From: Ulota crispa
Taxonomy: Eukaryota; Streptophyta; Bryopsida; Orthotrichales; Orthotrichaceae
DNA length: 64,000 nt
Assembly (NCBI GenBank): GCA_963920765.1
Contig: OY987252.1
Coordinates: 1,738,501 to 1,802,500, forward strand
Reading direction: 5' to 3'
Each line of letters begins with the position of its first letter. Position 1 is the stretch's first letter. The notes under the pieces are model-generated. The model was not told the DNA's origin. It made no database searches and saw nothing but the letters and a program-made list of their open reading frames with translations. Positions 16,260 through 38,459 of the stretch are shown here, piece by piece. A program made the position numbers and the translations under genes.

Positions 16260-16800
16260 CAATGACCAGTGCGAACTGGAATGTCATGTTAATAGATCCT
16301 TGGATGTGGATGAACTTTATACGACTACATGTGGGGATCCCTTGATGTATAGCGCATAATCTAATGTTAGTAAAGCAATTCCTTCTTGTGCACATCATCA
16401 TTGTTAGAATGTATTGTAGATAGTTCCTTGGACAACAATGTATACAATTGCATCAGGGGATACCTCAATGTAAAGTGCATAATCCAAGGTTAGTACAACA
16501 ATCCTTTCATGTGCAAATCATCATTGCCAGAAAGTCTTGTAGATAGTTCCTTGAACAACAATGCAATTTATAAAACTCCATCAAGGGATCCTCCTATGTG
16601 CAAAATCTAAGGTCAATAAGGCAATTCATAATTGCGCAAATCATCATTGTAAGAATTTCTTGAAAATAGTTACTTGGACATGGATGAAACTTATACAACT
16701 GCATCAGGGGATCCCTCGATATATAGTGCATAATCTAATGTCAGTATAGCAATCCATTGCTATGCACATCATCATTGTCATATGTATTGGAAGATCCCTC
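16260..16800 (+). repeat. Tandem array of about 123-128 bp, four units, each with the GGATCC palindrome
   Basis: Equivalent points start at 16,333, 16,456, 16,584 and 16,707. Each unit contains a 'GGGGATCCCT(T/C)GATG'-like core, then 'AGTGCATAATCTAATGT', 'GCAATCC', 'GCACATCATCATTG' and 'TAGTTCCTTGGAC'. It marks the left edge of the palindrome block. It is the only place where the palindrome is part of a longer tandem unit. Confidence 0.85.
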
Positions 16801-18430
16801 AATGAAATTCCACGGAATATCTTCCTAAGTAAACAGCAAAACCCTCTGAAATTGGCAATCGATTGAGGCCGCCAAAATTTGGCCATCACTATACGCATGC
16901 TTGGAGTGGAGGCAACAAATGGCAATGCACTAAATGTCAAAGCCTAGAGAGACTTAGCACCAGCGTATCATGAATACGTTAGATGTTTTTGATGAAGATA
17001 TGTGTATACCTAGAGAAACAAAATGAACACATGCTTGCAGTGACAATTTTGGGGACGTGGGTGCAAGCATTGAATTGCAACTTGAATACAAATCATATTT
17101 TACAGCAAACTAGTGAAGTGGCAAAGTTTGTCATATGATGGTGATTGCAATTACAGCATCTATATATGAAATTTGTCTACGTAACATAACACTACATACG
17201 ATAGAATACTTCAATGTTCAAACAATATTACACAATATAGTACATTGCTTTATCTCCCAATGTCATTGATGAACCATAGTGGTTACTGAGGAACACATCC
17301 ACCTAGTAAACGCCCCACAAATTCAACAAATTACTGCATAATCATGTCAAAATACAATGCCATATCAAAGAGTGAAAAAATTAAATGCAATTGTGAGTAT
17401 GAAACAAACATGCAACCAATCCAATAAGAAAAACAAAATAACAAACCTAGTTATTATGCACATTCAAGCAAGAGTGAAGTAGCATGACAAAAATGATTTT
17501 CACAACTAACGTATATTTATGAAAAAGAAAAATTATATTTTCATTATCACAATGGTGGCCGGGAAAGAACGTAAAGAAATGATGGAAGCTAAAGCCACAA
17601 ATTTAAAAAAGGAGCAAATCATTGACAAAAAACAACATTATATCCAATATCACAATTCAAATATTTAATAAACAAGTCTTTACATGACAAGCAATGAAAT
17701 CCTAATATTTGAACCAATATACAAAATCACAATATATTGAGTACTAGCCCAGAATCCATATAGTAGAAAACTAGGATAACATCAAGGGATCCCTCAATGA
17801 AAATTAAATCTAGAGAGCACGTCGCCAATGATCATTGGGGGATCCCCCAATGAAATGAGACCCTAGACCTAGAAACTAAAGGAGGATTGGGGGATCTCCC
17901 AATAAAAGATGAGCTTGAAAAAGAGGTTCATGATCATGGGTCAACCTTGTTGGACATATTCAGATTCTCTAATGCAGCTTCCTAGCTTTTCTTGGGAATC
18001 ACTCTGGTTATCAGATCCACAACCTTTGACCAAGTCAAATATACAACACATGTAGCATCAACCCAAGTTGGGGCACTGTTCTCAACCATCCATTTCCCGT
18101 GGCAGCAATTACGGTACTTATTTCCAAGTTTGTTTCGGAGTTATCTGGCTGTTAGTCCTGAAGAAAGAACTTTCCAATATTTTCATCTCCTTCTACTCTA
18201 CATATAGTAGAGAGCACTTGTCCTAACCAAACTGCACAAACAACAAGGCCCTTGGGTCTCAGTAAAACCCATGAGCTAGGTCAAACACCGAGCCAAGGGT
18301 TAAATCGCTCCGTTGGCGCTTCATTAGCAGGGCCGCAATAAGGCTCAACCTCCTCAGCTTTTGGAATATCATTCTTGGGGTTACCCTCCGCCCCTGTACA
18401 AGGCAAATTGTATTGTGCTAGCCTCCAGTC
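16801..18430. other. Spacer with three palindromes, no gene
   Basis: AT-rich DNA. A cluster of three palindromes lies at 17,781-17,903, spaced 52 and 51 bp. No coding sequence is convincing; an ORF at 17,992-18,207 has no recognised motif and lies opposite the tail of the DUF7869-type gene. Confidence 0.45.
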
Positions 18431-18439
18431 ATGATGAGG

Positions 18440-20390
18440 CTAGAAGCTTTCCACCAATTCCAATGGACGGTCGAGTAGTGGCTGCTATAGCTCATAGAGC
18501 ACGTGACTCCAATATTTGACATAAGGAGAAATTGCAATTGCATATCCTGCACACTTTATACTCCCATACTTCTAGGACTCAATGTACTTCTGCAGTCCAA
18601 CTAAAATAAAACTCTTGTTCAAGGTAGCTTTTCAAGTTGTTTTCCTTGCCTTATCTTGGTTTCATGTAGCACTTGGAACTTTGCTATCTTGCATGGGCTT
18701 GAAGGGAACCGGCTTAGGGCAACCAAGAGGGAGCATTGGCCGGCCGCTACTGTCTTCCTTTGAAAGGCGTGTAGATGGTCTATTTGAAGGAAGCGAATTA
18801 GTATCAATGGCAGATTTCTTGTACCTCATTACCGGCACCCCCTTATTGTCAACGTAGAACCGGAAGAGGTGCATATCACCCAAACCAAGTAGCCTGGCAA
18901 AGCCACTACATTGACAATCTTTTATAAAAGACTTGAAGTCCGCAACCTCTTGTATTATCTCCAACATGAAAGATAAATCCTAGAACTGCATAAAGGATTG
19001 TATCAAATTAGCAACTACGAATGTATTGCTGCTCTTCAAGGCTTTAGACAGATAACTAAAGTAAGCATTGATGTCTTTGTGAGTGTGCTCGACTTGCAAG
19101 AATCCAACTTGAATCTCTTTAAAGACACCACAAGCAGTGAGAAGTGACAAAAATGCCATCAAATATTTGTTTTTGTTATCCTTTGCAGAATTGTAAAGCC
19201 GAAGATATAGATTTTGAGGCAACGGTGCGGATCTGACACAAGCTCCAGGTTCTGTTAATTTCAAACTCTTCATACACCTAGATTTCCCTTTGAGAAGTGC
19301 CTCAAAAATTGGATTTGCCGATGCATATGGAAAGAGGTCCTCAGTTTCATGTATTGGAGGTCCCTCTAATCGATGAAGTAATCTAGCTAGCGACAACACG
19401 GTGAAATTGGAGTCACTCGGCCAACAAGATGGAGCATAATGAGCATATGCTCCGTCCGTGTGGCCATGAGCTACCATTCCAGTAATAATCATTGGCAATT
19501 GCCCAAGTCCTGACGTCCCTTTCATTGTGACTCTCATCCTAGGAATAGCTGTTTTGGATGTATCCATTTTTTTGTGAATGAGACAAAGAAGTTCCCATGG
19601 GTTCCTCTTGGACTTGTCATGCCATGAAACATACAGACAATGGTAGGACAATTGGTGGTTCAAATGTTTTGTTTGCTGCTTCATGAACTCAACATATTGG
19701 GGAGTTCCTTTTGGTGTTTTCAAAAGGAACTGCTGAAGTTGATTGCAGGTACTACACTTAGCAAAGTGCTTTCGACAGGTTTGATAGCCACATCGATAAA
19801 AAGTGTTCCTTTTTGATTCTACTTATGGTAGACTGGCTCACCGGAGGAAGTCCGTAGTCAACGTTTAACTGCACAATCACCACAAAATGAATTCAGAAAG
19901 GGCTTCATCAACAAAGAAGCAAACCATAGCACCAAAAAGACAGCATATGACGTGGTGATTTGCCTGGAATGATAAAATGGAAGAGTAGAACAAATCATCC
20001 GAGGATCCCCAATGAAGAAAATCTCCGCAAAAATAGGTAGAGAGACTTATTTCATTCGCCTTTGCCCGGACACGTTTCCAATTATTCCCAACAGGTGGAA
20101 ACTTGAGAGTGTCCATCCTGCCATTGTCAATTGAGCGCATTTGATGAGGCATCTGATCAGTGTTGTTGTCAACAATCGCTTGCATAGTTCCAGTGACTTG
20201 AACAATTTGAACTCTAGGACACTTAATTCCCTTTTTACCGTGAATTCCAATAATTATGCCAGCCTTGTATTGGTCAATGTAATTGTGATAAGTGGATTTT
20301 GGATTTCCATGGATCAATTGCCACACAATTGTGCAAACCTCAAATCTATCAAGTGTGATAAACTTGCGCTTGCGGATATTGTCTAGTTTA
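18440..20390 (-). pseudogene. DUF7869-type transposon-like gene, decayed
   Basis: Read on the minus strand: an N-terminal part KKGIKCPRVQIVQVTGTM with MPHQMRSIDNGRMDTLKFPP (20,090-20,260); a 178-bp intron (19,869-20,046, GT/AG), across which the frame continues NEI to NVDYGLPPVSQSTISRIKK; a cysteine pair in FAKCSTC (about 19,750); IHKKMDTSKTAIPRM (about 19,550); LPMIITGMVAHGHTDG; then the part most typical of DUF7869 proteins, LYNSAKDNKNKYLMAFLSLL and VEHTHKDINAYFSYLS (19,040-19,200); and a tail with DFKSFIKD and DMHLFRFYVDNKGVPVMRYK (18,800-18,950). These proteins resemble RNase-H-fold transposases and are common in non-flowering land plants. Here the usual GHTH reads EHTH, and frame changes near 18,970 and 19,730 break it. 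Confidence 0.78.
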
Positions 20391-20724
20391 TGAATCTATT
20401 CCTCTGCTGCAATCGCATATTCACAACGATCTTCAAATGATTTCAAGTAGAACTTCTAACAAATCATCAATGTCAGGTCTTGGGAAAAAATTGATAGCAG
20501 CAATTGTTGCAGCATTTTTGCAAGCTAACCTTTTGAATTTCAACATCCTGAGTTTTGGAAACATATTGTGAGTCTTTGTTACGCAGGCTCAGTTTTTACA
20601 CAATGAATTGGTAAGGCGCTTTCAGCCTACCACCAAGATATGCTAGGGGGTCTTGGACAACGGGAAAAGTTGCAAAATGCTCAAGGGTCTCAGCCAAGGA
20701 CTGACCATCCGGAAACCAGCACAA

Positions 20725-21329
20725 TTATAGTGGCCATTGAGAGTGTGTCATAATGAGGTCCTTGTTGCCAACAAACACATCCAAGACAATAACTCCCACA
20801 TCTTTGTCACCCAAGGTTCCACCTTGGAAATGATTATCCGGCTGGCAGCAATTTATTCCACCGGAAGAAAGAAGCTGCCTGTCAATATCTTTGTAGTGGA
20901 CTTCCAAACCAAGCCACTTATCTGGATGAATGAATGGAGACAAATCCATTGGGGATCCCTTAATGACTTCACCACACAAGAGACTCTCTACAAAATAGCT
21001 TTGTCAATGACATCCGCTAGCAACCTCAAATCCCTCTGACATGGGTCAATAGATATTGCACGAGCGCCTGCAATGATAGAAAGCAGCCGCAATAGAATAT
21101 AGATCCATGGCTGTAAAAGGATGATGACACCAAGCCATTGACCTTGAGGGCGAGCCTCCACAACAATAGCGGCTCCAATTTCTCCAACTCTTGTAACAAA
21201 AAGCTTGGCCGCATTGCCATTATAGATGGCTTGCAAGTTCTCAGTGGAATTCTGAGATTCTTCAAATGAAGGCAGATGAATCCTAGAGAGGGGAAAGTTG
21301 TTGACAATGGAATTGTTGAGAGCATCCAT
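20725..21329 (-). pseudogene. Possible upstream exons of the DUF7869-type gene
   Basis: Two minus-strand ORFs, 21,329-20,988 (113 residues, starts MDALNNSIVNNFPL, contains a hydrophobic run PQGQWLGVIILLQPWIYILL) and 20,979-20,725 (84 residues, MCGEVIKGSPMDLSPF). The palindrome at 20,947-20,965 is read within the second as KGSPMD. They lie just upstream of the DUF7869-type region, on the same strand, separated by stop-rich sequence (20,400-20,720). I recognise no domain; linkage to that gene is inferred from order and strand. Confidence 0.4.
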
Positions 21330-21673
21330 TTTTCTTGACTCAAATGAGAATTTGAGATCAATTTATAAAGGTTAGGCAAGTCCATAATGTAGACATTTGA
21401 CTAAATCAAGCAAACCGTATGCTTGGACCTAGATGCAAATGAAGCAATCAAACATACCCAACACTTTTTGGCCAATAGCAACTACTAGAATTCAATTACA
21501 AAATAAGCATGTATCTTAAACCCAGTAAAAATTTAGAGGTTCCCTATAAACGGTATGAATATGACTACATAATAATCAATAAGAATTCAGCAAATACCAA
21601 ATACTAGTGCAGCATTCCATATATAATTATTAGAAAACGGCGGTGTAGACTGAACTACAAACTGCATTCAAAG

Positions 21674-22346
21674 TATCCGGTGATTCCCCAATGAGAGTAA
21701 TCAATTTAGGACATCATGAGGTTTGCAAAGCATTTAGAACATAGTGACCTCATTACATAAATTGAATTTGACAACAACCAGAAAATAAAAACGTCATCAA
21801 CACCGCCAAAATATGACTCAAGAAAATGCTATCTGAGGATCTCCCAATAGAAATTGAATCAATGACCATTGAAGTACCTCCCATAAGTGGTTCTAAAAGT
21901 AGAGAGACTTCTAACAATTGACATTTGTCTTGAAATATTGGGGGATCCCCAAATGCAGTCATCTCTAGAATTGAAGAGGACCCACATCCATCCAAGGATC
22001 CTCGGACAATAGTCCATATCTTTCAAACACTTGTATGACTATTACAAGATGTATTTACCAAATGCGTCAAGGGATCCCCATTTGCTACACTTTGTGAAAT
22101 CAAGGAAGACGCATATCTATCCGAGAATCCCCCGACAATGATTGTAAAATTCCAAAGCTTACTGAGACTATTTTGCAATGATTATTTCAAATCTATCGGG
22201 AAATCCCTTGATGCCTTATATCCATGACTACTGATGGACAATCATCTATCCAAGGATCCTCGATGGCTCATTTACATGCATCAGCTTTTGTCAGACAATG
22301 TACATTCCAGATATAATCACGATACTTATCCAGGGATCCCCTGATA
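21674..22346. repeat. Palindrome cluster 2 (nine copies)
   Basis: Nine GGATCC-centred palindromes in 670 bp, many with start-to-start spacing near 52 bp (21,936 to 21,988; 22,066 to 22,117; 22,194 to 22,247), the rest about 75-80 or 105 bp. Intervening sequence is unique. No coding frame. Confidence 0.85.
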
Positions 22347-23939
22347 TAGACAGGTCATGATGAATTACAATCATCGGAGGTAAATATGCAAGAGTTGACT
22401 GTATTGCATTTAGCTGAAGATAATCAGAGTAAATTGGCCAAAACACTGCCATCTAGGTAACAATTGTATGGTATCACCTAATCAGGATTTTTGATAGGGT
22501 TAAATCTCACACATCCCATTGTCCGTACATAATGATTTGTGTTATCATTCATAATTGCTATAACAAAAAAATCTACTTGGTGATTGACTAATTCACTGTA
22601 GGACTCGTTATAAGATAACCAACCACTTCAAATCTTATCACAAAAGTCACAAACATGGTTGAATTTAGATATACCGCTCATTGGAATTGACCAACACATG
22701 ATAATATTGGATAATCACAGAAATTGCTACACACCATGGCCAAATGGCAAGAAAGTTGAGCAATTGAAGCATTTTCCGTGCAAATTCAAAATTCAATGCG
22801 TGTGACAACTACATAGACGAGCATTGTACTTCCAAATCAATTGCAGAGTGGTGACTTGCAAATTTATAATGAGGATTGAATCATAAAACGTGGAAAGCAT
22901 GCATGCATACCTCTAGCAGACTGTTGAATAATGACACTCGGCGCACTCCCTCAATCCACGCTGATCCACATTGCTATTTAGATAATATTCCTTGCCATCT
23001 TGCCACGCTGTGTTGTTGCGTCAAGAAATCAAGACTAAAGTCAACAAGCACAAAACTTACTAACAATCTTGATCCTTGACTTCAGTAACTTTGTTGCAAT
23101 TCATACAAAACTTTGAAATGAATGAAACAAAAGCAAGCTACATCAAATCAGCTCAAAAACTAGACTTGGAGCAAGAGTGAAAATGGTTGTGATGCCATGC
23201 GAAAGCTAGATCACGGCTGTTGCTACAAGTCTCAAATCCCGCCTTCTATTTTGTGAGAGCTGTTTTGAATTTGAAAATTGGTCTTGCCATTGGAATTTAA
23301 AATTCATATTTGTCGTGGAAATGTCTACAAGGAGGAATGATGATGTGGAGTAGTACATCATTCACGGTATCGCAAGGTAGAATGAGTGGCCGGCTATTCT
23401 TGTAATTTTTTAACGGAACAAAGCATAAACAAGTATATATTTCACCTCACCTCGTCTTTTACCTCTGTCATATTGACAATACAAAATCTATTCACACAAA
23501 CTAGCACTCCAACCTTAGATACATACTAGTCACAAATCTACAAAATGACTCAATATAAAATATTCAATGATAATCAATTTGATGAACATGGTAGCGTCAA
23601 TTTAAATGAACCAACATAAACCACTTCTTTCTATCTAATTAGCATTGGCAAAATAATCCATGAATTTTTCTACGAGGACAACAGCACCATTTTTGTCATT
23701 AGACTCCCGATGATACTAAAAAATTTCATACGCTAATTAGAATATGTTGTACTAGGTAGATCACCATCCCACACAAGATCCTCTTCATCTAGATTTACTC
23801 CACCAATTCATTTAAACCACAATGAGTTTTGGGTAAAGGCAGTCCACATTAGGACAATGATAAATACTTCCACAAAATCTACGCAATGCCGCATATGGTA
23901 CATTCACCATGGGGTTCAGATATAGTTACTATCCAACCT
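22347..23939. other. AT-rich spacer, nothing recognised
   Basis: No gene, array or palindrome seen. Short ORFs (for example 22,876-23,079) have no recognisable content. Confidence 0.5.
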
Positions 23940-25560
23940 TGCTTAGTAATCATTTAGAATTAACCTCTAAAGTCATATGTCTACAAAGGACTCATGTAAA
24001 GGGGGAGAACACTAAGAATGTGTCATTTTATTCCACAATAATTCCTCAACGGTAGCTTACAAGATCCTCACCATGTGGTTCAACAATCAAATTATGATAG
24101 CTGCTTTTACAGTGAGAATCACTCCCTTATTGCAGCAAAATTCAAAGGGTTTAGGATTTAGGGTTCTTTATTGGGATTATGTCATAGAATTACCCAAAAA
24201 TTCCCAAAAGCCCCTTACATTACCCTAACCACAAGGTTCAAAATTTACTGCATTCTAGCATTGCTTGCTGATCATTAAGTATTATCCTCTTAGTTCATGT
24301 AACTACAGGGTGTCTAGGCCTCTAGGGTATTGGAGACCCCATTTACAAAAATGTCAACTAATTCAAGAAATGATCCCAATTGCACCTTCACATTTGCTCA
24401 CTATTTGAAGAAGTTGTCATTCCATTCCATCCTTGATTGCTATTCATTTGGAAGTAACTCCGTAATTCATGTAAACATTGATGGGTTTAGGATGTAAGGG
24501 GAGCCCAATGGGATTGGGTCAACTCATTCCACAAAAACTCTCCGCAACCCCTTTTGCTACCTTGACCGGGTAGATAAGTATTCATCTTGTTCTAAAATTT
24601 TTATTGTATTTATTGAAAGTTAACTCTTTTGTTCATCTTAACTAAAAAGGGATACGGTATAAGAGGAGTCCAATGAGTTTGGGTCAATTAATTCCACATA
24701 TAATCTCCATACCCCCTTATTCTATCGTGACCACGTGGTTCATTTTTTGTCTCATTCTGACCTTGGTTGCTAATCATTAAGAGTTAACCCATTAGTCCAC
24801 AGAAACTAAAAAGGGATAGGGTATAAAGGGAGTCCAATGAGAATGGCTCAATTAAATCCACAAAGAATTTCCCAATACCCCTTACAATACCTTGACCAAG
24901 TGGTTAATTTTTTAATCCATTCTTACTTTGCTTGCTTTTCATTTAGAATTAACGGCGTAGATCATGTAAACTAAAAACGCATAGGGTATATGAAGGGCCC
25001 ATCGATATTAGGTCAATTAATTCCACAAAAATTCCACATAGTTGCTTACAATACTTGAACCACGTAAATTAAATTTTTATATCATTTTGATCTGTTTTGC
25101 TACTCATTTAGAATTAACCCCTTCAATCATGTAAACTAGACACACATAGAGTATAAAGGGGGCCCAATGATATTGGGTCAATTCACTCCATAAAAATTCC
25201 TTGTAAGGCCTTACAATACCTTGACCAAGTGGTTCAGTTTTCAATCCATTCTAATCTTTTTTGCTATTTATTTAGAATTAACTCCTTACTTCATGTAGAT
25301 TAGGAACACATAGGGTATAAGGGGGGCCCAACGATATTGGGTCAATTAATTCCACAAAAATTCCCTTTAGCCCCTTACAATACCCTGACTATGTGGTTCA
25401 ATTTTTAATCCATTCCAACCTTGATTGCTACTCATGTTGGATTAACCCTTTCATTCATGTAAATTGCAAAGGGTTTTGGGTTTAGGGGGCCTTCACTTGG
25501 ATTATTTCAACCAAATCCACAACAATTACACAATGAGCCTTGTAGTACAATCATTATGTG
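23940..25560 (+). repeat. 165-bp satellite array (about ten degenerate units)
   Basis: Equivalent points around 'GGGCCCAATGATATTGGGTC' start at about 24,338, 24,504, 24,669, 24,833, 24,998, 25,163, 25,327 and 25,490, i.e. every 163-166 bp. More divergent units lead in from about 24,007 and 24,166. Each unit also holds 'AATTCCACAAAAATTCC', 'CCCCTTACAATACC', 'CATTCTAACCTTG', 'ATTTAGAATTAACC' and 'TCATGTAAACTA'. Unrelated to the 174-bp family. Confidence 0.9.
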
Positions 25561-26150
25561 ATACTAATATCATTCCAATGGTATGCAATTGAACTTACTG
25601 AATAGTTCACCTAAACCACAAACTTAGGGATGAGATAATGGAGTCCTCCTATGAAGGGATCATCTTAAAGTGGACCTCTTACGTCCTCTTGAGTTCAAGG
25701 ATATAATTTTATGATCCATCTATAAATTGAAGGTAAGAAAGTCCATTAACTCTACCATATTCACATATCTTGGATAGGTCACAAGTGTTTATTTGTTTAG
25801 GACATCATTGGTTTATTTTCATCTTAAAACTATAATATAACAAATAATTTTATGATTGGATTAGTGATATGTAATTATAGTTTATCTATGAAAGGGTTTG
25901 ATTCTTGTCTTCACACCTTTTGAAATCTAAAAGAGATTAAAGAAGTCATACTCTAAGGTCACAACTTTTCCTAGGAGCAAAAACGCTTGAAGAATGTGAG
26001 AAATATCTGAATCATAATGTTCTTCCATTTATTATTTGAATTAGAAGATATGAATGTACTAAAGGAAATAAAATAAAGATATGACATAATTGTATGTGGC
26101 ACCATTACAATTATACACACACACTAAAAGAATATGAAAGATGTTCTAAA
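25561..26150. other. AT-rich spacer
   Basis: Nothing recognised apart from the 8-bp duplication GTTCTAAA (26,143-26,150) that borders the MITE at 26,151. Confidence 0.5.
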
Positions 26151-26396
26151 CAAGGTTGTTACATTGGGCGAGATTTTGCTATTGGACAGGGCAAGTAGAC
26201 AGACAAACGGGTCCAAATGGGGTGGTTGTCCACTCTAAAATTAAGAAGTAGATGTTCTGGCATAAGTGCAAGGTTGTGTCAAAACCTATATTGAAATAAA
26301 ATACTAGAAAAAAAGGTATATGTGTCCGTGCCTTCACCATTTATATTTGCGTCGGATGGACAAACGGGTAAGAATTGGTCCAATGTAACAACCATG
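26151..26396. mobile_element. hAT-type MITE, copy B (246 bp)
   Basis: Ends CAAGGTTGTTACATTGGGC and CCAATGTAACAACCATG are inverted repeats matching copy A (9,104-9,471). Flanked by an exact 8-bp duplication GTTCTAAA (26,143-26,150 and 26,397-26,404). No coding sequence. Confidence 0.92.
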
Positions 26397-27001
26397 GTTC
26401 TAAACAAAATAATGTACTATCAACATTCATCTTTTAGGAGTAACACTAATTCAAATTCTTCTTCAAATAAATCAAGTAACAATTTCAAATAATGCTAATG
26501 ATTGTGTCTTGCAATAGCAAATAATTATCAAGAACTTATACAATAATTGAATTTGTAGATAAATAAGGTATCTTAGTAAAATATGATTATAAATTTATTA
26601 ATTTGGACCTTGTTGACAAATATTGAAATGTGAGCAGTTAAAATACTGACAAGCAAATTAGTGATGTTGCTGGTAGCTTTGAAATATATAACAAAATGAA
26701 TAAGATTATTAATGCAAGTTTAAAATACTTAAATTCATTGTAGATGAAAATAATCACAGATAACAAAAAATCCTCATTTGAACTAAACTAAAATTTGTGG
26801 CAATAATTTATCATTTAGCATTAAAAATGTTAAGCTAATGTTTGAACACTGTTGAAATAGGCATACTTAGCTTTGAAAACAGATATCACAAATTTAAAAT
26901 GGACATGGATCACTAGGGGTTTAAGGTTGCTTATTGGTGGGATTAATCTAGCTATTCACCTTCATCATTGACAGGTTAGTAATAATCTACATCATGCGCA
27001 C
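26397..27001. other. AT-rich spacer
   Basis: Very AT-rich; no coding signal, array or palindrome seen. Confidence 0.5.
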
Positions 27002-28283
27002 TTGAGTGCTCTGGCACCCAAAAATTCTAGATCTGATGGAGACAATGGCGCTTTCATGTGGCGGCTTCATCATGAGCGCGTTTCCAAAACAGGAACGCAA
27101 GCGAGTTCCCATTGGATGGGAACTATGTCTTCTACTTTCCCCCTAATGCAATACAAGTTTTTTTGTTGTCCTCCAAATGTTTGTTTTGTTTTCAGCCTTG
27201 CGCAATTAGAATTGTTGCTTGCGGTTTTACATTTCAACCCCGCTTTATTAGTCAAATATTGCTTTGCGTAGATTGTTGATCAGGTACTTGTTGCGGCGAC
27301 ATAGGCATTTGTCAGTGGGGCAACATTTGCTGCGAGGCGCAATGATCTTTGCATGCCTAGAGCATCATCAAGCTTGAGCACTAAACCCTGGTAAGGAATC
27401 ACAACTCTCTTTGACAATTCAACAATGAAGTTGTTTGGACGCCTCTAGCAATGCTTTGCTATAGGAAAATTTGTCATTGCAGATCAGTAGTCTTCATTGG
27501 CTAAAAATGTAGCTCTATGGAAGATTGTAGTGAGGGCATGGGTTGCAGTATGTGTTGCTATTGAAGTTGTGAAACATGGTATTGATCAAGAGGAAACATG
27601 GAAATGGGTGAATGTTGTATTGGTCCACAAAATTGTGATACAACAATTAGGATCGTTTTGTTTTGTTGTCTATGCTAAGCATATTAGAGTTTAGCAAAGT
27701 AATGCTTGCAAGTTTATTGGGTGCAAGGATGTGGTTGCAATGATTAGAATAAGCTGGGACTCCTATTGCTATTATTTAGATTCAATTGTGTGTGACATAC
27801 TAGTAATCCTAGATGCTAATGAAGCAGATTAGCATTTTACAGTGGCAGAAATTGAGAGGGTACGGACAACAACACAAGAGGAAATCCAATGTTTGGCGAG
27901 AGTAACAAAGTTCATTGGCGTTGGATGTGATTAACTTTCAAAGCTGCAAATTTTGCACAAGTGCATTGCAAATCGAATTTTGCAGTTAGTTGATTATTCT
28001 TGTATTGATACATGTGATTGTATTAGTTAATTGGTTGAGGTAATGCAAGCGCGTGACAACAAAAAATTTAACTATAACATAGAAATGTCTACCGCTCTTG
28101 AAATAGATCATACGGAACTATGCCGTACAGTTGACAAGAGCATGTGTTATGATTTGCAAGCCTCCGGTATTGTTGCATTGCTGTTGTGACAAATGAAACG
28201 TTCATTGTCATTAGCAACTGCTTCTCTTGCAATGGCGCCTCCTGCTCAAAGAGTGGCAAGCAATCCTGTATGGAATCACCCAT
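27002..28283 (+). pseudogene. Coding-like stretch, unidentified, possible first exons of the 29-37 kb region
   Basis: A plus-strand frame with few stops: 27,497-27,694 (MAKNVALWKIVVRAWVAV) continues past a TAG through KFIGCKDVVAMIRISWDSY and, after another stop, FTVAEIERVRTTTQEEIQ (to about 27,930). A separate open stretch at 27,002-27,160 begins MSALAPKNSRSD. No domain recognised. The strand and the mostly-TAG decay match the coding region downstream, but I see no direct link. Confidence 0.35.
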
Positions 28284-28419
28284 AAGTTGTTCATATCTTC
28301 ATATCTCACTCCTTGCTCATATGACATAGAACAAAAACCAAACATTCACTGCACAAAAAATGTCAAGATGACAGCAAGGTATATGACAAAATTAATTGGA
28401 CAATTACAATATTACTATG

Positions 28420-29196
28420 TATCCGAGGATTGCCCAATGATGACCCCAAAAATCTGATATGCGACAACAATATGCAGCGGGGCGCATGTCATGTATGTGA
28501 CATCCGGGGATTCTCCAACAAATTGTGATGCAACAAAATGCATTCCAAAACCATCTGGGGATCCCTAGATGGCAAATCCTCTCTGCCTTAGATTAAGATA
28601 ATGACCAGAATCCATGAACAGCAGAGAATTAGGAACTTGGGAACTATATCTAGGGATTCCTTGATAAGTAGGTCACAATAGAGTAAGTGTACACGAAATG
28701 GAACTCAGTTACACAATTGTTCCTATCAAACTATGATAACTCCATCCAAAGATCTCTAGATAGATTAATCTAGTTTGCAAGCATAGGTTTAAGACTATTT
28801 GGGGATCCCCCGGTAAAGAAACAATGAGCTCCAGCGCAAGGACTTCAAGGACCGCGGATCCTCAAATGGCAAGTTATGTAGTGCTCATTTCATTTGAGGA
28901 TCCCCCGATAGAATGGCTATGATGGAAAGGAAATATTCATGAGTAATGGTGGATATCCGGATACAAAATTGCACTACTTGCAGCCTGTCCGGGGATCCCC
29001 TGATAGAAATATGGCATCAACAATTATATGGATAGTAGTGTAAATGAATTCATGGACAAGATACATCACGTTCCGCATTGCATCCGGAGATCCCTTGATG
29101 ACTTCTTAGTGGCAAACCAAACAGTAGAGAGATCCTATCAGTGACATTGTGCCAGGAATTGAATACTCATACATTACCAGGGGATCCCCCAATGAG
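28420..29196. repeat. Palindrome cluster 3 (eleven copies)
   Basis: Eleven GGATCC-centred palindromes in 780 bp, with start-to-start spacings of 81, 51, 95, 96, 54, 53, 41, 95, 95 and 94 bp, mostly near 50 or twice that. The sequence between is unique and non-coding, except that the last copy is read in the ORF from 29,149 as TRGSPNE. Confidence 0.88.
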
Positions 29197-31618
29197 TTCA
29201 CCTTTCTATGTTTTGATGTTAGGTATATTCAAATGTGCAAACCTAGTGACAACAGTAAAGCTTCAGAGGAGCAAAGATCTGTAAGGCTGGCGCATTACAT
29301 TGACCAATGGGCTCCGTTGTTTACATATGAAGGACTTAACCCGCCAAATGCAGTGTTAAGGTGCTACAAAAAAGTAACGGCCTAGGATCTGGAATGGAAG
29401 GCCGTGCCCAATTCAGATGTCCTCATCTACCCTTAGCTTGTGGATGGCACCGGAAGCCATCAAAGGCATGGCCTAAATGTTGTTGACATGCAAGGACTGG
29501 ACAATAATTTAGTGCTTGTTGTTGTCATTGAGAAACGCCCGGGATCAAACAACATCCTATACTATGGGTTGATTTTGGACTACACTGTCCTGTCAAAATC
29601 GCTTGTTAAGATTTTGATCGAGCAAGGATTGTTGCTTAGCCACAACAACTGTCTAACTTTTAGTCAACATGAAATGAAAGTTTAGTGGAGTATGATAGAA
29701 GAAGCCTGAGTAGCTAAGGAATCCAATGTAAACAAAGTTATTGTTAGACCATAGCGGCCATCACTGCAAAAGAAGAACAAGAAGAGAAATGCCATGGTTG
29801 GGGCTCTGAGTTACGTAGCCGAACCATCAGAGTTGGGAAAAAAACATAAGTCAGAGCTTGAACTTTACAAATGTGTGAAGATGGACGAGGTAGATGTTCA
29901 AAAGCTCACTACGGCGCACATGAAGAAAGTGAGAGCACTCTACAAGAAGAGCTTCGACCCATTCTACAAGTGGAGGAGGAAAGCATTTGCAAAGGACAAC
30001 AGCAACCTACTACATGTCAACTTCAAGTATCTACACAGGGCCCTGCATAGAAAACTTGTGTACAGACCTATCATTGACAAGCAATTACAAGGGATAAAAA
30101 ATAACGCTTGAATATAAGGTGACTTCCACGGCAAGCACTGGTACATTGTTGTTCTTCCGCTCAAAATGAGTGGTTACGGTTCCAATGGTGTGGATGATTA
30201 TTACGACGCGGCCCTAAAGAAATTGGACATCAAGGAGAAATCCCACTAATATATCATTGGTGGGCAACACATGGTGGAAGCGTACAAGCAGCTAGTCACT
30301 GTCGATGAGTTTGATGATGATGGCAAGAAGGAGGAGGCATCCACATTCAACATAGTCTTGGTGTGGGCTCCTCAAGACAATTTCAACCAATTGGTGCACC
30401 TGCCGAAGGCCCTCAACCAAAATATTGCTGAGAACCAAAAGGAGCAGACCTTCATCTAGCAGCTAAGGACCGCCAAAATCCGTTGGAGACTAATGGAAAG
30501 TTTGCAGCCCTCTTTAAATGGGAGACATCACTCAGAGGAGTATTATGTAAGCCTCTTGACCAATGAGAATTATATCATGTATCTTCTATTTGGGGATCCC
30601 CAGATAGATAGTTGGACATCTTGGAAAATGTTAGTTACCAATCCTCTAATGTTTGTCCTTGTCTGCACAAAAATTCTTTCCATCACTTGTCACTATATTC
30701 TCCAATTCAAAAGCCAGTGACAAAAATAGCGAGTCCAGAATATTGTTGATGTTTCTTGAAAATGACCTCAATGTTGAAAGGTGGTACTCAATTGAAGAGC
30801 AATACATGAAAGGATATCTATCGGACGTTGCCGATAAAATCAACGACAGCGGCAAGGCTAAAAGGAAACCCCTCACCAAGTCCAATTTCAAATTCATGTA
30901 TGGGCTACGCGCAGAGGACGTTTTTGTGATTGCTGAGCAGGTTGAAGCAAAGACAAAATGCATGAAGAGCTCAAAGGGGCAGAATATTACCGGCAATGTT
31001 TCGTTGCCATTGAAGGATGTAGCAAAGCGTATCTGTCTTCATTGCATGATGAAGAATGAGCTTATGAATCACTACAAGAATTTCCTGCTTTGTTGTAAGA
31101 AGCCAAAGTATGTTGACTACACAATTGCAGAGTGGGATTTGCTAGCAGCGGAGAAGAACAAAATAGAGGACAATATCAAGCTCTGGGTCAATAGAGCACT
31201 AGAAATAGTAGCAAGGAGGCAATGGTTTGAAGAACAAAACTAGCCAATCAACAAAAATTATGACCCAGTCAAATGTTTGGCCTTCATTAAAGAAATGTGG
31301 AGGCTAGCAAAGGAAGTCGCCCCCGCTCATTGTGGCATCGTGGACAGGGACAAGGAGTACAAAAATAGTCACCTTTGCATGACCATGGATTCCAAAACCT
31401 GGAATTTAGGCGAGTTGTTATCAACACTTGACATCCCGACATGGAGGGGAGTAAATGTGCATCACATGTACTTCTGCTTTATGTTAGAGGAGGCAGAAAA
31501 TGGAAGTGTAGGCTCTATCAAACTAGAAGAGCGGCAATAGAGAAAATTGTTCAATGTCCTTGAGCTGAATGTTCCAAGCCAGCAGCTGTCTGTAATTGCC
31601 AGATCGCCTGCCGTGATT
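29149..31618 (+). pseudogene. Decayed gene with ParB/sulfiredoxin-like motif, 5' part
   Basis: Plus-strand blocks in one direction, broken by stops: 29,149-29,690; 29,794-30,111 (lysine-rich; NFKYLHRALH, RPIIDKQLQGIKNN); 30,115-30,459 (GDFHGKHWYIVVLPL, then YIIGGQHMVEAYKQL, then FNIVLVWAPQDNF and QNIAENQKEQTFI); and, after a palindrome-bearing interval (30,589), 30,754-31,243 (helical, KRKPLTKSNFKFMYGL) and 31,277-31,618. The order 'replaceable positions / preferred values / I-x-G-G-Q-H-x-x-E-A' resembles the ParB/Srx fold, in which G-x-H-R-x-x-A is typical. That is an inference from a short motif; the rest is unidentified. The CACTA-type MITE at 31,619 interrupts the coding frame. Confidence 0.55.
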
Positions 31619-31793
31619 CACTACTAGAAAATTGTGTTAGAATCCACCTAAAAATGTAAGGTAGTTTATGTTGAGTTCCATGTTTCTAACACAAAATTTT
31701 GTTGAACAACGCAAAATTTTGCATTGGAAACATGGAACTCAAAATAAACTACCTTACAATTTTAGTGGATTCTAATGCAATTTTCTTCTAATG
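31619..31793. mobile_element. CACTA-type MITE 1 (175 bp), inserted in coding sequence
   Basis: It begins CACTACTAGAAAATTG and ends CAATTTTCTTCTAATG. Long arms of about 70 bp pair around a short centre (left 'GGTAGTTTATGTTGAGTTCC', right 'GGAACTCAAAATAAACTACC'). The CACTA start and 3-bp duplication ATT (31,616-31,618 and 31,794-31,796) are those of the CACTA/En-Spm superfamily. Removing it with one ATT joins the frames as SPAVI-LTNFEGSALIV with no shift. Confidence 0.92.
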
Positions 31794-31796
31794 ATT

Positions 31797-32541
31797 CTGA
31801 CAAATTTTGAGGGATCTGCATTGATTGTGACTCATATAAAGGCGCAGCAGAGGGAATCAAAGGCTAAAGTGTGGTCTCACCACTGTGTCAACTACTTCCC
31901 TGTTTCTAGCAATAATTTTTCTCGACCAGCCACTGGGACCAAATTCAACATAAACGTGGTCTTTCTTTTCAAGTATGACCTAAAGTAGAGCAAGCAAAAT
32001 TGCTTTGCTCTCAACTTCACTGGACTAAGGGCTCGAAGACCCTACTATAACACAGATGACACAAGGGATATGAATAGCTTCTAAAAGAGGAATAAGTTGC
32101 CATGGATGAGAGTGAAGATTGCCACTGATGTGTTCCTTGACCACATCACCAATAACATGATAGTAGTAATGTTAACGATGGTCTTGAATTCACTCATCTT
32201 GGGCTGGTGAGAGATCTACCATCTCCAAACCCTCTAATTAATAAACATTCTATCAAGCACCTTGTCGTAGGAGTGTTGACAGTTTTTTGATGGATTTTCT
32301 CAAGTTGGGCAAGCTAAGTGCATTTTCAGCACCTTATAGAGTCAAAGCGCAATCTTTTGGACGACAAATTTGGGAGCACGTCAGATTGGCAGATAATGCG
32401 AATGCAGATAATCTAATTGCTGATATTCCTAGAGTTGCTAATCCAGCTCCAAATGTAGTCTAGGAAGAACCGAGGGAAGAAACATTAGACCACATGGTTG
32501 GTTCTCAATACCTCGCCCGGAGGCGGCTCAACGATGTCAAG
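31797..32541 (+). pseudogene. Continuation of the ParB-like gene after the MITE
   Basis: The frame resumes as LTNFEGSALIVTHIKAQQ and runs to 31,988. Further blocks in changed frames follow (KLPWMRVKIATDVFLDHITNN, about 32,095-32,160). The last, 32,290-32,541, is 84 codons beginning MDFLKLGKLSAF with one TAG at 32,461-32,463, and ends exactly at a donor (AAG then GTACAA). It is phase 0 and joins the next three exons in phase. Confidence 0.55.
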
Positions 32542-32695
32542 GTACAAATTCTGAGCTGCCCATCTGTGGATCCCCAATGGCTGCGTTATAGATATCATTT
32601 GGTTGCTCTCATTGGGAGATTCCTCTATGCTCTTTGGTGTCTTCAATAAACACAACAGAGATCCTTCTCATTCTAACTCTGTTCCTTGATTTTAG

Positions 32696-32812
32696 GATTC
32701 CCACAATGAACCTCCTCGGTCTCAAAGAGGCAAGAGGATATCCACGCGATTGCCATCTAGGCACTCAACTCGGTCCCACAAACCCGTGCAATGTCGGCTC
32801 AGTGTTGTAGAG
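32696..32812 (+). pseudogene. Basic exon, 39 codons (phase 0)
   Basis: Bounded by TTTTAG before and GTTTGT after. Open throughout; begins DSHNEPPRSQRGKRIS, rich in Arg, Ser and His. The introns on both sides (32,542-32,695 and 32,813-32,968) each hold two GGATCC palindromes. Confidence 0.65.
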
Positions 32813-32968
32813 GTTTGTCTTTTTATCTAACCATTGGGGGATCCCTTGATGGATCTACCCTTGCATTGCAATACTCTCTCTCATCAGGGGATCCCCCGAT
32901 GCCATGAGTTGTTTGAATCAATAAACTCAATTCTAGTTTTAGTTTCTAACCACTTGAATTACTTTTAG

Positions 32969-33130
32969 GATTTGCTCCCAAAATCACCTTCGTTGCGTAG
33001 GGGTTACGGGAACCCAAGTTTGTTGGATCAGCGCCGAACTAGGGAGCCTTTGGCTGAACGACAGACAAGGAAGTCGTCCAGCTCCTTGGAATCCATTGAC
33101 GACAATCATGACTCACCTATGGTCAACTAG
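32969..33130 (+). pseudogene. Basic exon, 54 codons (phase 0)
   Basis: Bounded by ACTTTTAG before and GTTTGA after. Reads DLLPKSPSLRRGYGNPSLLD onward and ends with TAG at 33,128-33,130 directly before the donor, probably a mutated CAG. The next intron (33,131-33,328) again holds two palindromes, 49 bp apart. Confidence 0.65.
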
Positions 33131-33328
33131 GTTTGAACTTTTCATATTGTAAGCGTGTAGGTCAAGACATGGAACAATCAGTATTTGACACTTATCAGAG
33201 GATCCCGGATGCTAAACAATTTTGGGAGTTTTGATAACTTCTATCCGGAGATCCCCCGATGTCATTTGACTCTAGATAGAATCCTATTTGTTGATTATGA
33301 TGTTCATCAATTCTTGTTGCGTGTGCAG

Positions 33329-34360
33329 GATGCGCTTCAAGTACCATCTCAAAAGCAAACATAGACTTTGAGTCAGGTGAAGCAGAAGAACGTTGCTGGC
33401 CCTTTTGACAAATCCCCAACTCGGAGGTCTAATGCAAGTTTGGACCGGAGTGGTGCCAAGGCATCCAAGAAATTTTTTCCTGCGAGGAAGACGCGCAGTT
33501 CGTTGAAGAGGCCAGACTGCAAAAAGAAGGACCTTGCTCCATGGGCTTAGCGTGCCTAGGGTAATGCCAAAAAGAAATAGCCAGAGGTTGGGGTGTATCA
33601 GACTTTTGACATTGAAGATGACGCGGAAAAATTGGACGTGTCCAAGAGAGCTGAACGCATATGTCGTCAATCACTTGTAACCAGGCGTCCACCTCCCCCT
33701 ACAAGTAGGTTGATCCCGACAATTCCAGCCCCACCTACATTTGACCCTACCCAAGCGGCTGCCACCCCCTTTTCTCTGCTATTAGTGTCCAACCGTCCAC
33801 AACCTGCCGTAGCCCATTCACAGTAATCACTTGCACATCCTTGCTCTCGTCTTGTGGTTTTGTCTTCATCAACTTCAAGTGGAGGTCTCGGGGATTCAAA
33901 TGCAGGCATCAATGCATTGGAGGATCCACAGATACCCCGCAAACCCTCGCCTGATCCTATACATATTTCCATGGATGAGTCCCAATCAAGTCCTGTGGAA
34001 CTCATAACTGAGGAGGTTTGTTTCGACACATTGAAGGACATCCGTCCTTTTAGTCCTCCAACTACAATTGCTGGGCAGGCTTTATTGTATTCTCAAGTAA
34101 ATGTTGGCACACCATATGAAGGGCCGACTGTGACCATGACCAATGCATCACCCCTTAGCCCGTCAACTGCTCCTTTGCTGGGTGGTTTGGGTGTGGCCAA
34201 TTCTAATATTGCCACACAAGCAGAAGTTTTGACTGATTATGTTAGACTAAGGCATAGATTCAGCCAACTTGTTTTTTATTTCCAATTTCATTTTCCTCTA
34301 AAACATTTTCCTTTGTCAATTTCTTCTAGCAGATTTAAAGCCATGAGGCTACCGCTATGA
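33329..34360 (+). pseudogene. Long disordered exon (basic, Pro/Ser-rich)
   Basis: It follows GTGTGCAG and stays in one frame for about 1 kb with only five stops before its end (TAG at 33,362, 33,548, 33,557 and 33,578; TAA at 33,821). Contents: a lysine/arginine-rich first third (SPTRRSNASLDR, KKFFPARKTRSSLKR), an acidic patch (TFDIEDDAEKLD), then proline-rich and serine-rich sequence (TRRPPPPTSRLIPTIPAPP; DESQSSPVELI). This looks like a disordered nuclear protein or linker. The exon probably ends before 34,260; beyond that the frame reads like intron. It lies directly upstream of the FCP1-like domain. Confidence 0.6.
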
Positions 34361-34658
34361 TAAACTTACAATTCATCTTTTGTTTTTGATATTTGTCAAG
34401 AAGAGGAGCTAAATGAAGTAGATGAGTTGGGTAGTCCTTCACTGGCAAGACGGAATACACAGGGTTGTTAGGAAAAGGGGATGGGAGATGAAGAAGTTGC
34501 AGGTGCTGAGAATGACACCTTACTTTGAGACCAACATTGTCCCTTTGACTTCCCAATTTGGTTTCCCTGACGCTAACTTCTTGGCGTCATTGTCCTTTAT
34601 AGATTTACTAGTGCATATTCCATTATTGCCAATGCAGTTGAATGAGGTACCACTTTGA

Positions 34659-35261
34659 CGGTATACTGTAGTTTTAGACTTCAGCAGAGTTATCCTTCAC
34701 AAATATAGAGCCCAAGGAAAGAGCTGTTGTATCCAAAGACCAGGAGCTAGACAATTTTTGAACTGGCTGTATGCTAATGCAACACTCAGGTTCTAGAGTT
34801 GTGCTTCTCAATCTAATATGCAAGTTATGATTGAGTATTTGACACTTGACGTCTCATTTGGTGAACTGGACATTGCTATCTTAACACAGGTTGCTTGCAT
34901 AAAGTCCTTTTATAAGAGTCGTTGTAATCAAGATAAACCATATTTTCTTAAAGACTTAAGGACGTACGCAAAGGTGTGAGTGCATAACCCAACACTTAAA
35001 GACATTCTTTTAGTTGGTGATAGTCCTTATAAAAATCTTTTGAACAATATGTATTGCGCAATCCACCCTCTTTCATGGGATGGGGATCAAAATGACACTT
35101 TCCTCATTAATCTATTGATTCTGTGGCTTGGCGGACTTTACAGATCAAATTAGCTTGTTGTCACCTATGTCAGGAAAAATCCATTGCCGCAAAGCCAGAA
35201 ATGATTAGATGTGGACCCAGAATTAGTGAAGAGCATTTGGCAAGGACTACCACCACACTAG
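34659..35261 (+). pseudogene. FCP1-like (HAD superfamily) phosphatase domain, decayed
   Basis: Single frame with four in-frame stops before its end. In order: RYTVVLDFSRVILHKYRAQG (motif I region; the first Asp is kept but the usual D-x-D-x-T/V reads D-F-S-R-V), RPGARQFLNWLY, SNMQVMIEYL, KPYFLKDLRTYAK (the lysine motif), and ILLVGDSPYKNLLNN (acid motif near the end of FCP/SCP domains), then HPLSWDGDQNDTFL. The order and spacing match the FCP1 homology domain, which removes phosphate from RNA polymerase II tails and similar targets. The missing second Asp of motif I suggests that even the intact ancestor was not a standard phosphatase. Likely the C-terminal half of the gene that includes 32,290-34,360. 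Confidence 0.72.
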
Positions 35262-36484
35262 GACACCCCCTTCTAATGTAAACATCCGGGGATCCCCCAA
35301 TGGTAGTATGTTTCTGTAATGCCGTGCAGGATATTGCAACATCTGAGGAGGCTTTAGTGTATATAGTATGAGTTGTTGTTCATAGTGATAATGTACATTT
35401 GGGAATGAATTATTCCTGTTTATTCAATTGACAACTTCAAAGTCAATCATCTATAGCAATAGTGTTTTGAAGCAATCTGGAGATAATATCTTAAATTTTC
35501 TTACTACATTTGTCTTGAATCAGTGTTACTTACATTATTCATTTTCATGTTTTGGTTCTACCTAGTGCCGTAGAATTGCTGCAATTTTGGTTGTTTCATC
35601 TCTTCAACCATCTGGGGATTCCTTGATGGTACTTTGAGTCTCCAATGTCCTCTAGAATTTTTGAACATTCAAAGAGGTCTAAGTGTGTTTTGTATGATTT
35701 CTTGTTTACATTGTAATCAATCCACTGGGAATACTCTTGTCTTTTTTGATCACTTCCCAAATTCCAAGTCTCATATTCATAATGTATTTGTGGTGCATTG
35801 GTCTAGAGATGTACTCCTACTGGTTATACTTATGTACAATTTTGTGATTCATTAGGCCTACTCATTTCATTCACATGGTTGTGTTCTAGCTCGTGTGTAA
35901 GAGCTGCTGCGTTGTTAGGACTTTTTCCATTAACCACTCAATATGCTGATTGCTCTTATAACTTTCAAATTATTTAATTTGAAATAATTTGCTGCTTACC
36001 TTACTTAGGTAATACAATTCAATGTTTGTATTGTAAGTCGATTGTGTATCCGCATTTACTTTTTGATGTTGCATTTTAGTGTATTGTTCAGTGGATTCAA
36101 ATGATTTTTTCATGCTTCTCCATTGAGTTTGTGATTTAATTAGTTTGGCCTTGTAAGTGAGATGCAAGGTTAGTATATTTATTTTTGCAAAATTTGTTGT
36201 TCTCCATTTATCTGGGGATCCCCTGATGATGGCTTGTTCCTTCAATTGTCATACTTAACTTTTTTGTCAAGTCTTGCATTCCTCATCTTTGACTCTCTTG
36301 TGAGTTTTCATTTTGCAAGAGAGGTTGGTATTTGTACTACATGGTGCTCTATGCATTCCGGGTGGTATAGCAAATCTTCTACCACTTATCAAAGTACATT
36401 TGGGCTTTGTCTGACTAGTTTGGTTTTCTGTTACCCATACACGCTATGGATTATGATTGGCAATGAATCTTGACACACTTGCAG
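35262..36484. other. Non-coding interval with three palindromes
   Basis: T-rich sequence like intron or 3' untranslated DNA, with palindromes at 35,283, 35,609 and 36,209. Small ORFs have no recognisable content. Confidence 0.45.
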
Positions 36485-36733
36485 AGCTTCTTTGACGTAT
36501 TATTCCCGCAGATGTTGTCTCCCAGTTTCAAGTTTTAGCAAGATCTATTGGATATCACAGCAATAAGTTTGGGCCCTCCTCTTCTGAAATTGTTATGTTG
36601 CTCCTACAGAATCCTGGCACGCGTAGAATATATAAGAATAGGAGATTGAAAATGCTTGCTGTTGATTCTTTGAATTACCGTCAATTACATGGTCAACTAG
36701 GATATGTACTTATTACAGATGCTACAAGCACTT
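36485..36733 (+). pseudogene. Coding-like exon, unidentified
   Basis: It follows ACTTGCAG; one TGA near its start, then open to a TAG at 36,731-36,733. Reads RIIPADVVSQFQVLARSIGY, then EIVMLLLQNPGTRRIYKNRR and LGYVLITDATS. No domain recognised. Same strand as the FCP1-like domain and inside the palindrome block, so possibly its last exon. Confidence 0.4.
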
Positions 36734-38459
36734 AGTTCTGAATTTTTTACTGTGTAGTGCCTATGTTTTTCCAATAGGCACAAATGTGGTCATTCTATGC
36801 ATATGAATAAAGTTTGGACAATCTTCCTTTGGTATGCGTGTTACGCTCTAGGTATTCTTATGTCCTAATTTGCCTTTGCCTTCAACTTGCCAATTGATTT
36901 TGCTTTTGTCTATTGAATGATTATCACTCTGTACTCATAATTTGGTTTTGCTCTATTGTTGGAGTCACTCTATCAGGGGATCCTTGATGGGTGCTTCTTA
37001 TGGTCATCTATTGATTATCTTAGTAGGGTATAATCTTCCACTACATCTTGATGTGTCCATGACTGTATTATTGTTGTCAAGGGATCCCTCAATACAAATT
37101 GGACAGTAAGATTGGTTGGCAACTCTAGGTTGATGTTCAATTAATACAATTGTTGGCAGTTCTTACTCTTCAGCATCCTTGATTTCTACCCTACCGGATA
37201 CAAGCCACCTTGTGGTGGATATTTCCAACTTGACTAGATGATCAAATGTCCCTTCTCTCTTAATTCTTATTTGATCTACTACTAATTTTTAATCGTATTC
37301 AGTCTTGATTAAGTCTGCGCAATGGCCTCATAGTATTGTCATTCCTGTCTACTCTAGCGCCTTGCCAACTAAGATATCATTTCTCTTTTCATGGATATAT
37401 CTTCTGAGTAATAGTCCCCTATTATACTTTAGAAATTCCCCATTTCTCTTGTGTATCATAAGTAAATGTTTGACTATATGAAATCATTTACAGTAGGGAT
37501 TTTCATAATGATCATGTGCACAATATATCAGGAGATCATGCGATGACTTAGACCGCTCTTCATTACCTTTCTTGCATGTTTCTACACTTAGCACCTTCTT
37601 ATTGCATACTTTAGAGAGATCCCCAAAGTTTACAATCTTGGTCTAGTCCAAAATTCTCTGTATAGTCCAGAAATAGTTAAATATGGCATAAGAGAAACAT
37701 TTGGATAGTGTCAAGGTCCCCATTAGTTTTTTTGTGTTTTAGGTTAGTTGAATGGAGTGTTTCTTTAAAGTCAGTGCTCGGATATGACCAACAATTTTTT
37801 CTTTCCCAAAGCATTGACCTTATCCAAGCACCACTATAGGTGTTTTTTGATTAATTATTGACTAAATCTTTTGCTCAATGATTAAGGAGTTTGCTAGAAT
37901 CTTGAAGTAACACAAATAAGTTAAGTTTCAAATTTTTCCACTTATGCCAAGTGTGCGCAAGTTAAACAAAAGAAGGCTTGCCTTGAGTTTTAAAATAAGG
38001 ATCATACTCTAACTTATTGGAAGGAAATGAATAAGCACATGCAATGAGTCAAAATATTCCACTTGATTTGAATAGAGTCAAACATACATATTAGTTAATT
38101 ACTTCAAACTAGTTTAGAAAATGTTTGGTGCCTAATGCATAAAGGTTCCTGAATGAAACTTACAATTACAAGCTGCATTCAAAGTTGGTATACTTCAATC
38201 AAGATCCCACTGTCGCCTCATATAAGCGTGTTGCACCAGTACAGAAGAAACTATCCCTAAACTTGCACTTAATTTAAATTTCCGCACAATAGCTTTGTAA
38301 GAGCCACCAATACTACAACCACCATGCCTTGTAGCATCCTTTCCGTATTTGCCATTTCTTCCAGGCATGAGTGATATCCAAGAATTAACTTCTACTTTTG
38401 TTGGAATCTAGTTTCCTTTTCTATTTGTTGAGTTGAACAAAAGCACTCCCTCAATAGAA
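36734..38459. other. Right edge of the palindrome block and spacer
   Basis: Last palindromes at 36,971, 37,075 and 37,526. After about 37,560 there are no more, and no coding sequence up to the LINE at 38,460. Confidence 0.5.

Follow-up and report, generated by a model that had tools for sequence, protein, structure and literature searches.

A giant, possibly Sola1-type transposon of Ulota crispa carries a palindrome array that is probably a family-specific set of dimer sites

Introduction

Here we describe a giant DNA transposon in Ulota crispa (Bryopsida), and an array of GC-rich 20-bp palindromes dispersed along it, within a 64,000-nucleotide stretch of contig OY987252.1 (positions 1,738,501 to 1,802,500, forward strand). 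This whole stretch is called the window, and corresponds to C11:1738501-1802500 in the genome searched, which comprised 274.8 Mb. A mitochondrial reading of the DNA (code 4) was dropped on account of a 275-Mb genome with matches to the LEAFY SAM domain (six above the cut-off, the best at 1.2e-27), which point to a probable streptophyte plant. We consider it rather probable that the palindromes are dispersed sites of an element-encoded homodimer, most likely the ParB/sulfiredoxin-fold product of a gene here called gene B, lying in the noncoding parts of the transposon.

Results

The element and its genes

The following features define the element (those given without a strand have none):

16167..16170: left target-site duplication (TSD), AAAA; the right one is AAGA at 37690-37693, with three of four bases equal
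16171..37689: the giant transposon itself, one copy of ~21.5 kb; pieces align to a copy on contig C4, with terminal inverted repeats (TIRs) and TSD
16171..16195, plus strand: left TIR, ATGCCATATTTAACTACTTTTGGAC, from the sequence at the block edge
17985..21362, minus strand: gene A, multi-exon and decayed, DUF7869, putative transposase (PF25273, E 9e-30, at 18980-19819; protein-level match to the copy on C1)
29248..31985, plus strand: gene B, decayed (match to the C1 copy); the ParB/sulfiredoxin-fold stretch of its homologues falls at an estimated ~30010-30560
34422..35150, plus strand: gene C, decayed, an NLI-interacting-factor-like (FCP1/SCP type) phosphatase (PF03031, E 1.5e-9, stops read through; part conserved with C1)
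37665..37689, minus strand: right TIR, from the sequence at the block edge

Coding parts were picked out by comparing the window element with the strongly diverged copy on C1. Genes A and B are divergent, on the minus and plus strands respectively, and gene B is broken by stops in the window, as are 34 of its 47 matches genome-wide. Copies of gene A share the stretches KMDT(A/S)KT, DNSAKDNKN and HTHKDI(D/N), noted by eye, which suggest a DDD/E nuclease, and its product is the putative transposase of the element.

The earlier note, which saw the palindromes as a possible hallmark of one large mobile element, had defined no termini for it; both edges of the block in fact carry an inverted repeat, ATGCCATATTTAACTACTTYTGGACT. 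The copy on C4 aligns piecewise to 16171-37689, mostly at 77-85% nucleotide identity, and its outer ends coincide with these two positions. A 23-mer of the TIR, with up to three mismatches, has 280 matches in the genome vs one for the reversed control, and convergent TIR pairs, with termini reading ATGCC...GGCAT, flank palindrome blocks. Exact 4-bp TSDs (CTGG, TTTT, CAAA, ATAA, AAGA, ATAT, TTGG, GGTA and CTAT) bound nine of 17 such pairs, vs a mean of 0.64 and a maximum of 5 when partners were shuffled 5000 times. No pair has an exact duplication of 5, 6 or 8 bp at the same boundary, and one has a 3-bp duplication that does not extend to 4. The 17 pairs omit L069/L070, whose two ends look like different elements, and the single ends L071-L078; they include L059 and L061 on C6, which lack a duplication and may be mispaired. 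Spans of the listed pairs range from ~16.5 to 49 kb, the longest perhaps nested or mispaired. Paired TIRs and 4-bp duplications together establish that the block is a single giant cut-and-paste DNA transposon, so the idea of a mobile-element hallmark stands.

Other families were considered and set aside. CACTA (En/Spm) elements have CACTA ends and 3-bp TSDs; here the ends are ATGCC...GGCAT, and a duplication of exactly 3 bp occurs in the one pair mentioned. Elements of the hAT and KDZ groups have 8-bp TSDs, of which the 17 pairs show none at this boundary. An outer pair, GGTGCTTGGATAARRTCAA, at 16141 and 37832 was rejected as the element end, being missing at the ends of the C4 copy; it probably marks a smaller repeat that was interrupted when the window element inserted, and two such matches arose in six of 100 shuffles. 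Related TIR matches (e.g. TGCCATATTTAACTACTTATGGA) are numerous away from palindrome blocks and may belong to smaller relatives.

Palindromes are confined to the element and avoid its coding parts

Palindromes were scored against YATYN-GGGGATCCCC-NRATR (18 informative positions), with 20 first-order Markov simulations of the window as background. The 35 places in the window that score 15 or more all fall inside the block (Markov mean 0.2); at 14 or more, 41 of 42 fall in the 16.3-37.5 kb block, the sole outsider being at 8183 (Markov mean 1.75); at 13 or more there are 56 places, 47 in the block and nine outside (Markov mean 11.75). With up to two mismatches, ATYNRGGGATCCCYNRAT has 30 places in the window, all in the block, vs a shuffled mean of 0.22. 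Both the confinement and the excess over background that the earlier note had reported thus hold up. Genome-wide, ATNNGGGGATCCCCNNAT with up to two mismatches has 1148 places per strand vs 405 for the reversed control. Among the exact-core matches listed, which lie on contigs C1-C6 only, 48 of 50 are within 25 kb of a match to gene B or to gene A (at 50% identity or more), although such regions make up only ~1% of the genome; the palindromes are clustered with the element genes and show no even spread.

The sites and neighbouring features are laid out as follows:

16328..16804: sites 1-5, within tandem repeats of a 123-bp unit close to the left end (motif scan)
17780..17904: sites 6-8, downstream of gene A, at intervals of 53 and 52 bp (motif scan, spacing)
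21674..22346: group of palindromes upstream of gene A (motif scan)
24421..25463: tandem array of 164/165-bp units between genes A and B, without palindromes; copies C4 and C2 have it too, and C1 and C7 match it weakly
28420..29194: group of palindromes upstream of gene B, whose spacings include 94-95 and 51-53 bp
31620..31791: insertion missing from copies C4 and C2 (alignment gap), with an inverted-repeat look by eye
32561..37545: remaining sites scoring at least 14, at 32561, 32610, 32832, 32882, 33242, 33915, 35283, 35609, 36209, 36971, 37075 and 37526

They run through the whole 21 kb; the outermost 1.8 kb on the left contain eight of them and the outermost 0.8 kb on the right three. None of 41 sites overlaps coding sequence, defined as hand-merged protein-level matches to C1, vs 10.1 expected: sites occupy the intergenic stretches, the regions upstream of the two divergent genes and the gaps between exon matches, the last being the case for the palindromes at 19996 and 20946 in the span of gene A and at 30587 in that of gene B.

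Probable protein half-sites rather than a hairpin

The half-site reads YATY-N-R-GGGA in the window copy (W) and in the copies on C4, C2 and C1, and YATY-R-T-GGGA in the copy on C7. Decay seems to have gone least far in CATCCGGGGATCCCCGGATG, or half-sites CATCCGGGGA or CATCGGGGGA, in the main lineages, and in CATCGTGGGATCCCACGATG, with half-site CATCGTGGGA, in the C7 type.

It had been claimed that the two arms vary together, as if the palindrome itself were kept. Permutation of mirror positions, ten in all, does not bear this out: p falls no lower than 0.24 for the 47 sites of W, 0.10 for the 55 of C1, 0.03 for the 33 of C7 and 0.06 for the 102 of W and C1 combined. The threshold behind these site sets was permissive and lets in some chance matches. 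Apart from one of the ten positions in C7 (the p of 0.03), mirror positions show no covariation, which indicates that the arms evolve separately, as half-sites of a protein and not as a hairpin.

Neighbouring sites are spaced 52-54 bp apart in 15 of 66 cases, vs 2.1 under the null (five in W, eight in C1, two in C7); 53 bp is five turns of B-DNA. General phasing at 10.5 bp beyond this class was not detected (p 0.26 without it). Sequences enclosed by the 53-bp pairs show mostly no relation to their neighbours (mean identity 0.31 vs 0.28 shuffled), with one pair at 0.76. A self-spreading palindrome or hairpin, kept for its structure, is a proposal of the earlier note that we disfavour as improbable in the extreme: perfect palindromes are present, the five left sites sit inside the 123-bp tandem repeat and the single C7 position would fit it, but the remaining mirror positions, the unrelated pair interiors and the confinement to one element family, with 48 of the 50 listed exact-core sites near element genes, all speak against it.

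Judging from the sequences, some of the variation in the arms resembles CpG decay. CpG is retained at -7/-6 or -6/-5 in 14-30 half-sites per copy (of 52-86), and TG or CA is common there. Possible hypermutation of the sites was considered as well: between W and C2, transitions are in excess in the variable site columns, with 94 vs 18 transversions, and number 409 vs 263 in flanks; the rate of CpG transitions is similar in sites (0.26-0.41) and flanks (0.26-0.35). Average conservation of sites in the alignable copies is not above that of flanks (0.77-0.81 vs 0.78-0.88); apart from the AT and core columns, none is conspicuous.

Sites persist across copies and the motif has switched with gene B

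Five whole copies (W, C4, C2, C1 and C7) were analysed, of roughly 38 gene-B places in the genome; these places result from hand-merging 47 rows of gene-B matches, and those of gene A, at 50% identity or above, were likewise merged to 37 places, both counts omitting some short fragments, e.g. C11:2833047 and C6:19725184. With 13 of 16 as the minimum score, the copies hold 41 (W), 31 (C4), 38 (C2), 43 (C1) and 26 (C7) sites. The window element can be aligned with C4 and C2, but with C1 over only 3.7 of 22.1 kb and with C7 over only 3.5 of 23.7 kb, mainly in gene A and the tandem array and at the ends. Sites outside these alignable parts number 40 of 43 in C1 and 26 of 26 in C7, which implies that the motif was kept, or re-made, as the surrounding sequence was lost. 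A ~2.1-kb stretch is common to C7 (17482-19629) and C1 (4667-6753) at 82% identity in opposite orientation, and is probably an unrelated element inserted in both.

The T-type motif occurs in six of 30 gene-B loci of ~3.5 kb each (L024, L026, L027, L032, L033 and L034), with two to four sites apiece; L024 is part of copy C7. In the gene-B tree these six loci form one clade with support of 100/100 and a single change, the direction of which depends on the root, here placed at the midpoint. This count assigns L017, 12 of whose 32 half-sites are of T-type, to the main type, and it includes two loci, L018 and L029, that overlap at one place. Mixed half-sites occur in L017 and slightly in L019, L020, L013 and L025; six sites of L017 are identical hybrids, catcTAGGGATCCCACaatg, with one half of main type and the other of T-type. 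L033 (C6:274494) and L034 (C6:369244) are closely similar gene-B loci separated by ~95 kb and may stem from a segmental duplication. If a symmetric dimer alters its specificity in one lineage, the dispersed, non-homologous sites of that lineage are expected to change in both arms, as they do here.

Such a switch bears on who might bind. Docking of a host transcription factor, with the sites acting as promoter or enhancer of the element genes, would suit the clusters upstream of both divergent genes; we nevertheless judge it very improbable, since the listed exact-core sites keep so largely to the vicinity of element genes and since a shared host factor would not explain a motif that changed in step across the sampled loci of one transposon lineage. 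It is unlikely, though less strikingly so, that the putative DUF7869 transposase (gene A) or another element protein binds them as accessory sites of a transpososome, for which the multiple TnpA sites of En/Spm are a parallel. Gene A resides in the same elements and would likewise track the motif switch, and, as noted above, eight and three sites do lie close to its left and right ends; the sites, however, spread over the whole 21 kb, beyond the ends, and six other DUF7869 loci (34-37% identity, without a gene-B match, 8-8.7 kb each, out of roughly 80 such loci) hold one site in 49.2 kb. Within these six loci, the near-absence of sites indicates that the palindromes go with gene B and not with DUF7869 as such.

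Gene B homologues are predicted to share the ParB/sulfiredoxin fold

The window copy of gene B is itself broken, and structure models were made of its homologues P0001 and P0021, which match ParB/sulfiredoxin structures. With the two-domain P0001 model, Foldseek gave no ParB among the 50 matches first listed; ParB matches emerged from a second look and from a domain-only model. Pfam, PADLOC, PDB sequence and hhalign searches with gene B returned nothing significant, and a scan of viral contigs found no relative of it. ParB proteins bind cytidine triphosphate (CTP) through the motifs GxxRxxA and ENxxR, for which GGQHTVEA and LNQN..G.Q(K/R)E are candidate boxes by eye; hhalign places the first in register, without significance. 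Pfam found no domain, including methyltransferase, in the later exons of gene B in two copies, and none in the homologue P0028.

These last results weigh on the idea that the sites are targets of DNA modification (core GATC/GGATCC), with gene B a ParB-methyltransferase that chemically marks the element. The core consensus does contain GATC, and the protein of the Ectocarpus element Sola1-1_Ec32 combines ParB-like with N4C/N6A methyltransferase domains, according to the relevant passages of PMC12477816. Non-CpG cytosine transitions between C4 and C2 are about twice as frequent in sites (38/279 and 28/265, or 0.14 and 0.11) as in flanks (95/1373 and 100/1379, 0.07); against W there is no such excess (0.16 and 0.14 vs 0.16 and 0.15 in flanks). 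Since Pfam matched no methyltransferase in the later exons of gene B in two copies or in P0028, and 20-bp sites far exceed the length of a methylation target, we regard this idea as quite improbable.

Genomic setting

Contig C11 (6.3 Mb, 2.3% of the genome) holds nine of 38 gene-B places (binomial p 1.6e-7) and 13 of 37 gene-A places (p 1e-12). Giant DNA transposons (KDZ, EnSpm) are described as enriched on sex chromosomes (passages of PMC12477816), and C11, the window's own contig, is perhaps one. Just right of the element, at 38600-42700, are minus-strand remains of a reverse transcriptase like that of long interspersed elements, and at 62170-63723 remains of a hAT-like transposase, both recognised by eye.

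Discussion

The motif array is a probable family-specific set of dimer sites, and binding sites of a factor encoded in the block, one of the earlier suggestions, appear from sequence comparison to be the best reading of the palindromes, jointly with their role as an element hallmark. We infer both the binder, most likely the protein of gene B, and the effect of its binding. Dimers of this protein would recognise two half-sites, CATCCGGGGA or CATCGGGGGA in the main lineages and CATCGTGGGA in one other, and would load at many sites, often at pairs 53 bp apart; the loaded protein might then coat the DNA of its transposon, mark it or draw it into loops. Such a label of self-DNA could serve to regulate the two divergent genes, to protect against silencing or to assemble a very long transposition substrate. 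If this is true, a self-marking protein of bacterial type operates within the nuclear DNA of a plant, with implications for the movement of giant transposons or their evasion of silencing. A candidate site, a second specificity and many natural copies make the proposal of self-binding testable by simple in vitro binding.

Several known systems offer partial parallels. The array resembles the TnpA sites of En/Spm (CACTA), subterminal 12-mers bound by an element protein, in its many copies of a short motif and in having an element protein as candidate binder; it differs in that its sites are 20-bp palindromes found throughout the element, which has other termini and 4-bp duplications. By predicted structure, gene B homologues fall in the same fold class as sulfiredoxin and SerK kinases, enzymes of other pathways that are not known to have DNA sites, and the GGQH stretch of gene B resembles the GCHR of sulfiredoxin.

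With bacterial ParB-parS, Noc and KorB the modelled system shares a ParB/Srx-fold protein, as predicted for the homologues, and palindromic sites of similar length. It differs from ParB-parS in being a eukaryotic transposon, with ~40 sites in 21 kb and no helix-turn-helix identified by Pfam in the later exons. We suggest only tentatively that it is a eukaryotic counterpart of ParB-parS, in which a ParB-fold protein, possibly a nucleotide-gated clamp, acts at ~40 parS-like palindromes over 21 kb, protein and sites having switched specificity together at least once.

Sola elements are DNA transposons with TIRs and 4-bp TSDs, and the window family shares these traits in its paired TIRs and 4-bp duplications. 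Our literature search, which mostly did not reach subscription papers, returned no report of a palindrome array in ParB-bearing giant transposons; in PMC12477816 the word "palindromic" is absent, and the ParB passages name no binding sites. That source does describe Sola1-1_Ec32 of Ectocarpus, a giant Sola1 of 21.5 kb with a ParB-like accessory DNA-binding protein on the strand opposite the transposase, and, in the passages concerned, proposes that ParB-like proteins of algal transposons bind their own element (PMC12477816). The window element, at ~21.5 kb and with its ParB-fold gene B on the strand opposite gene A, the putative transposase, is probably of the same kind, and differs in that no methyltransferase domain was detected by Pfam in the later exons of gene B in two copies or in P0028. 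ParB-like accessory proteins of giant algal transposons are thus known; what is new here is an array of candidate binding sites.

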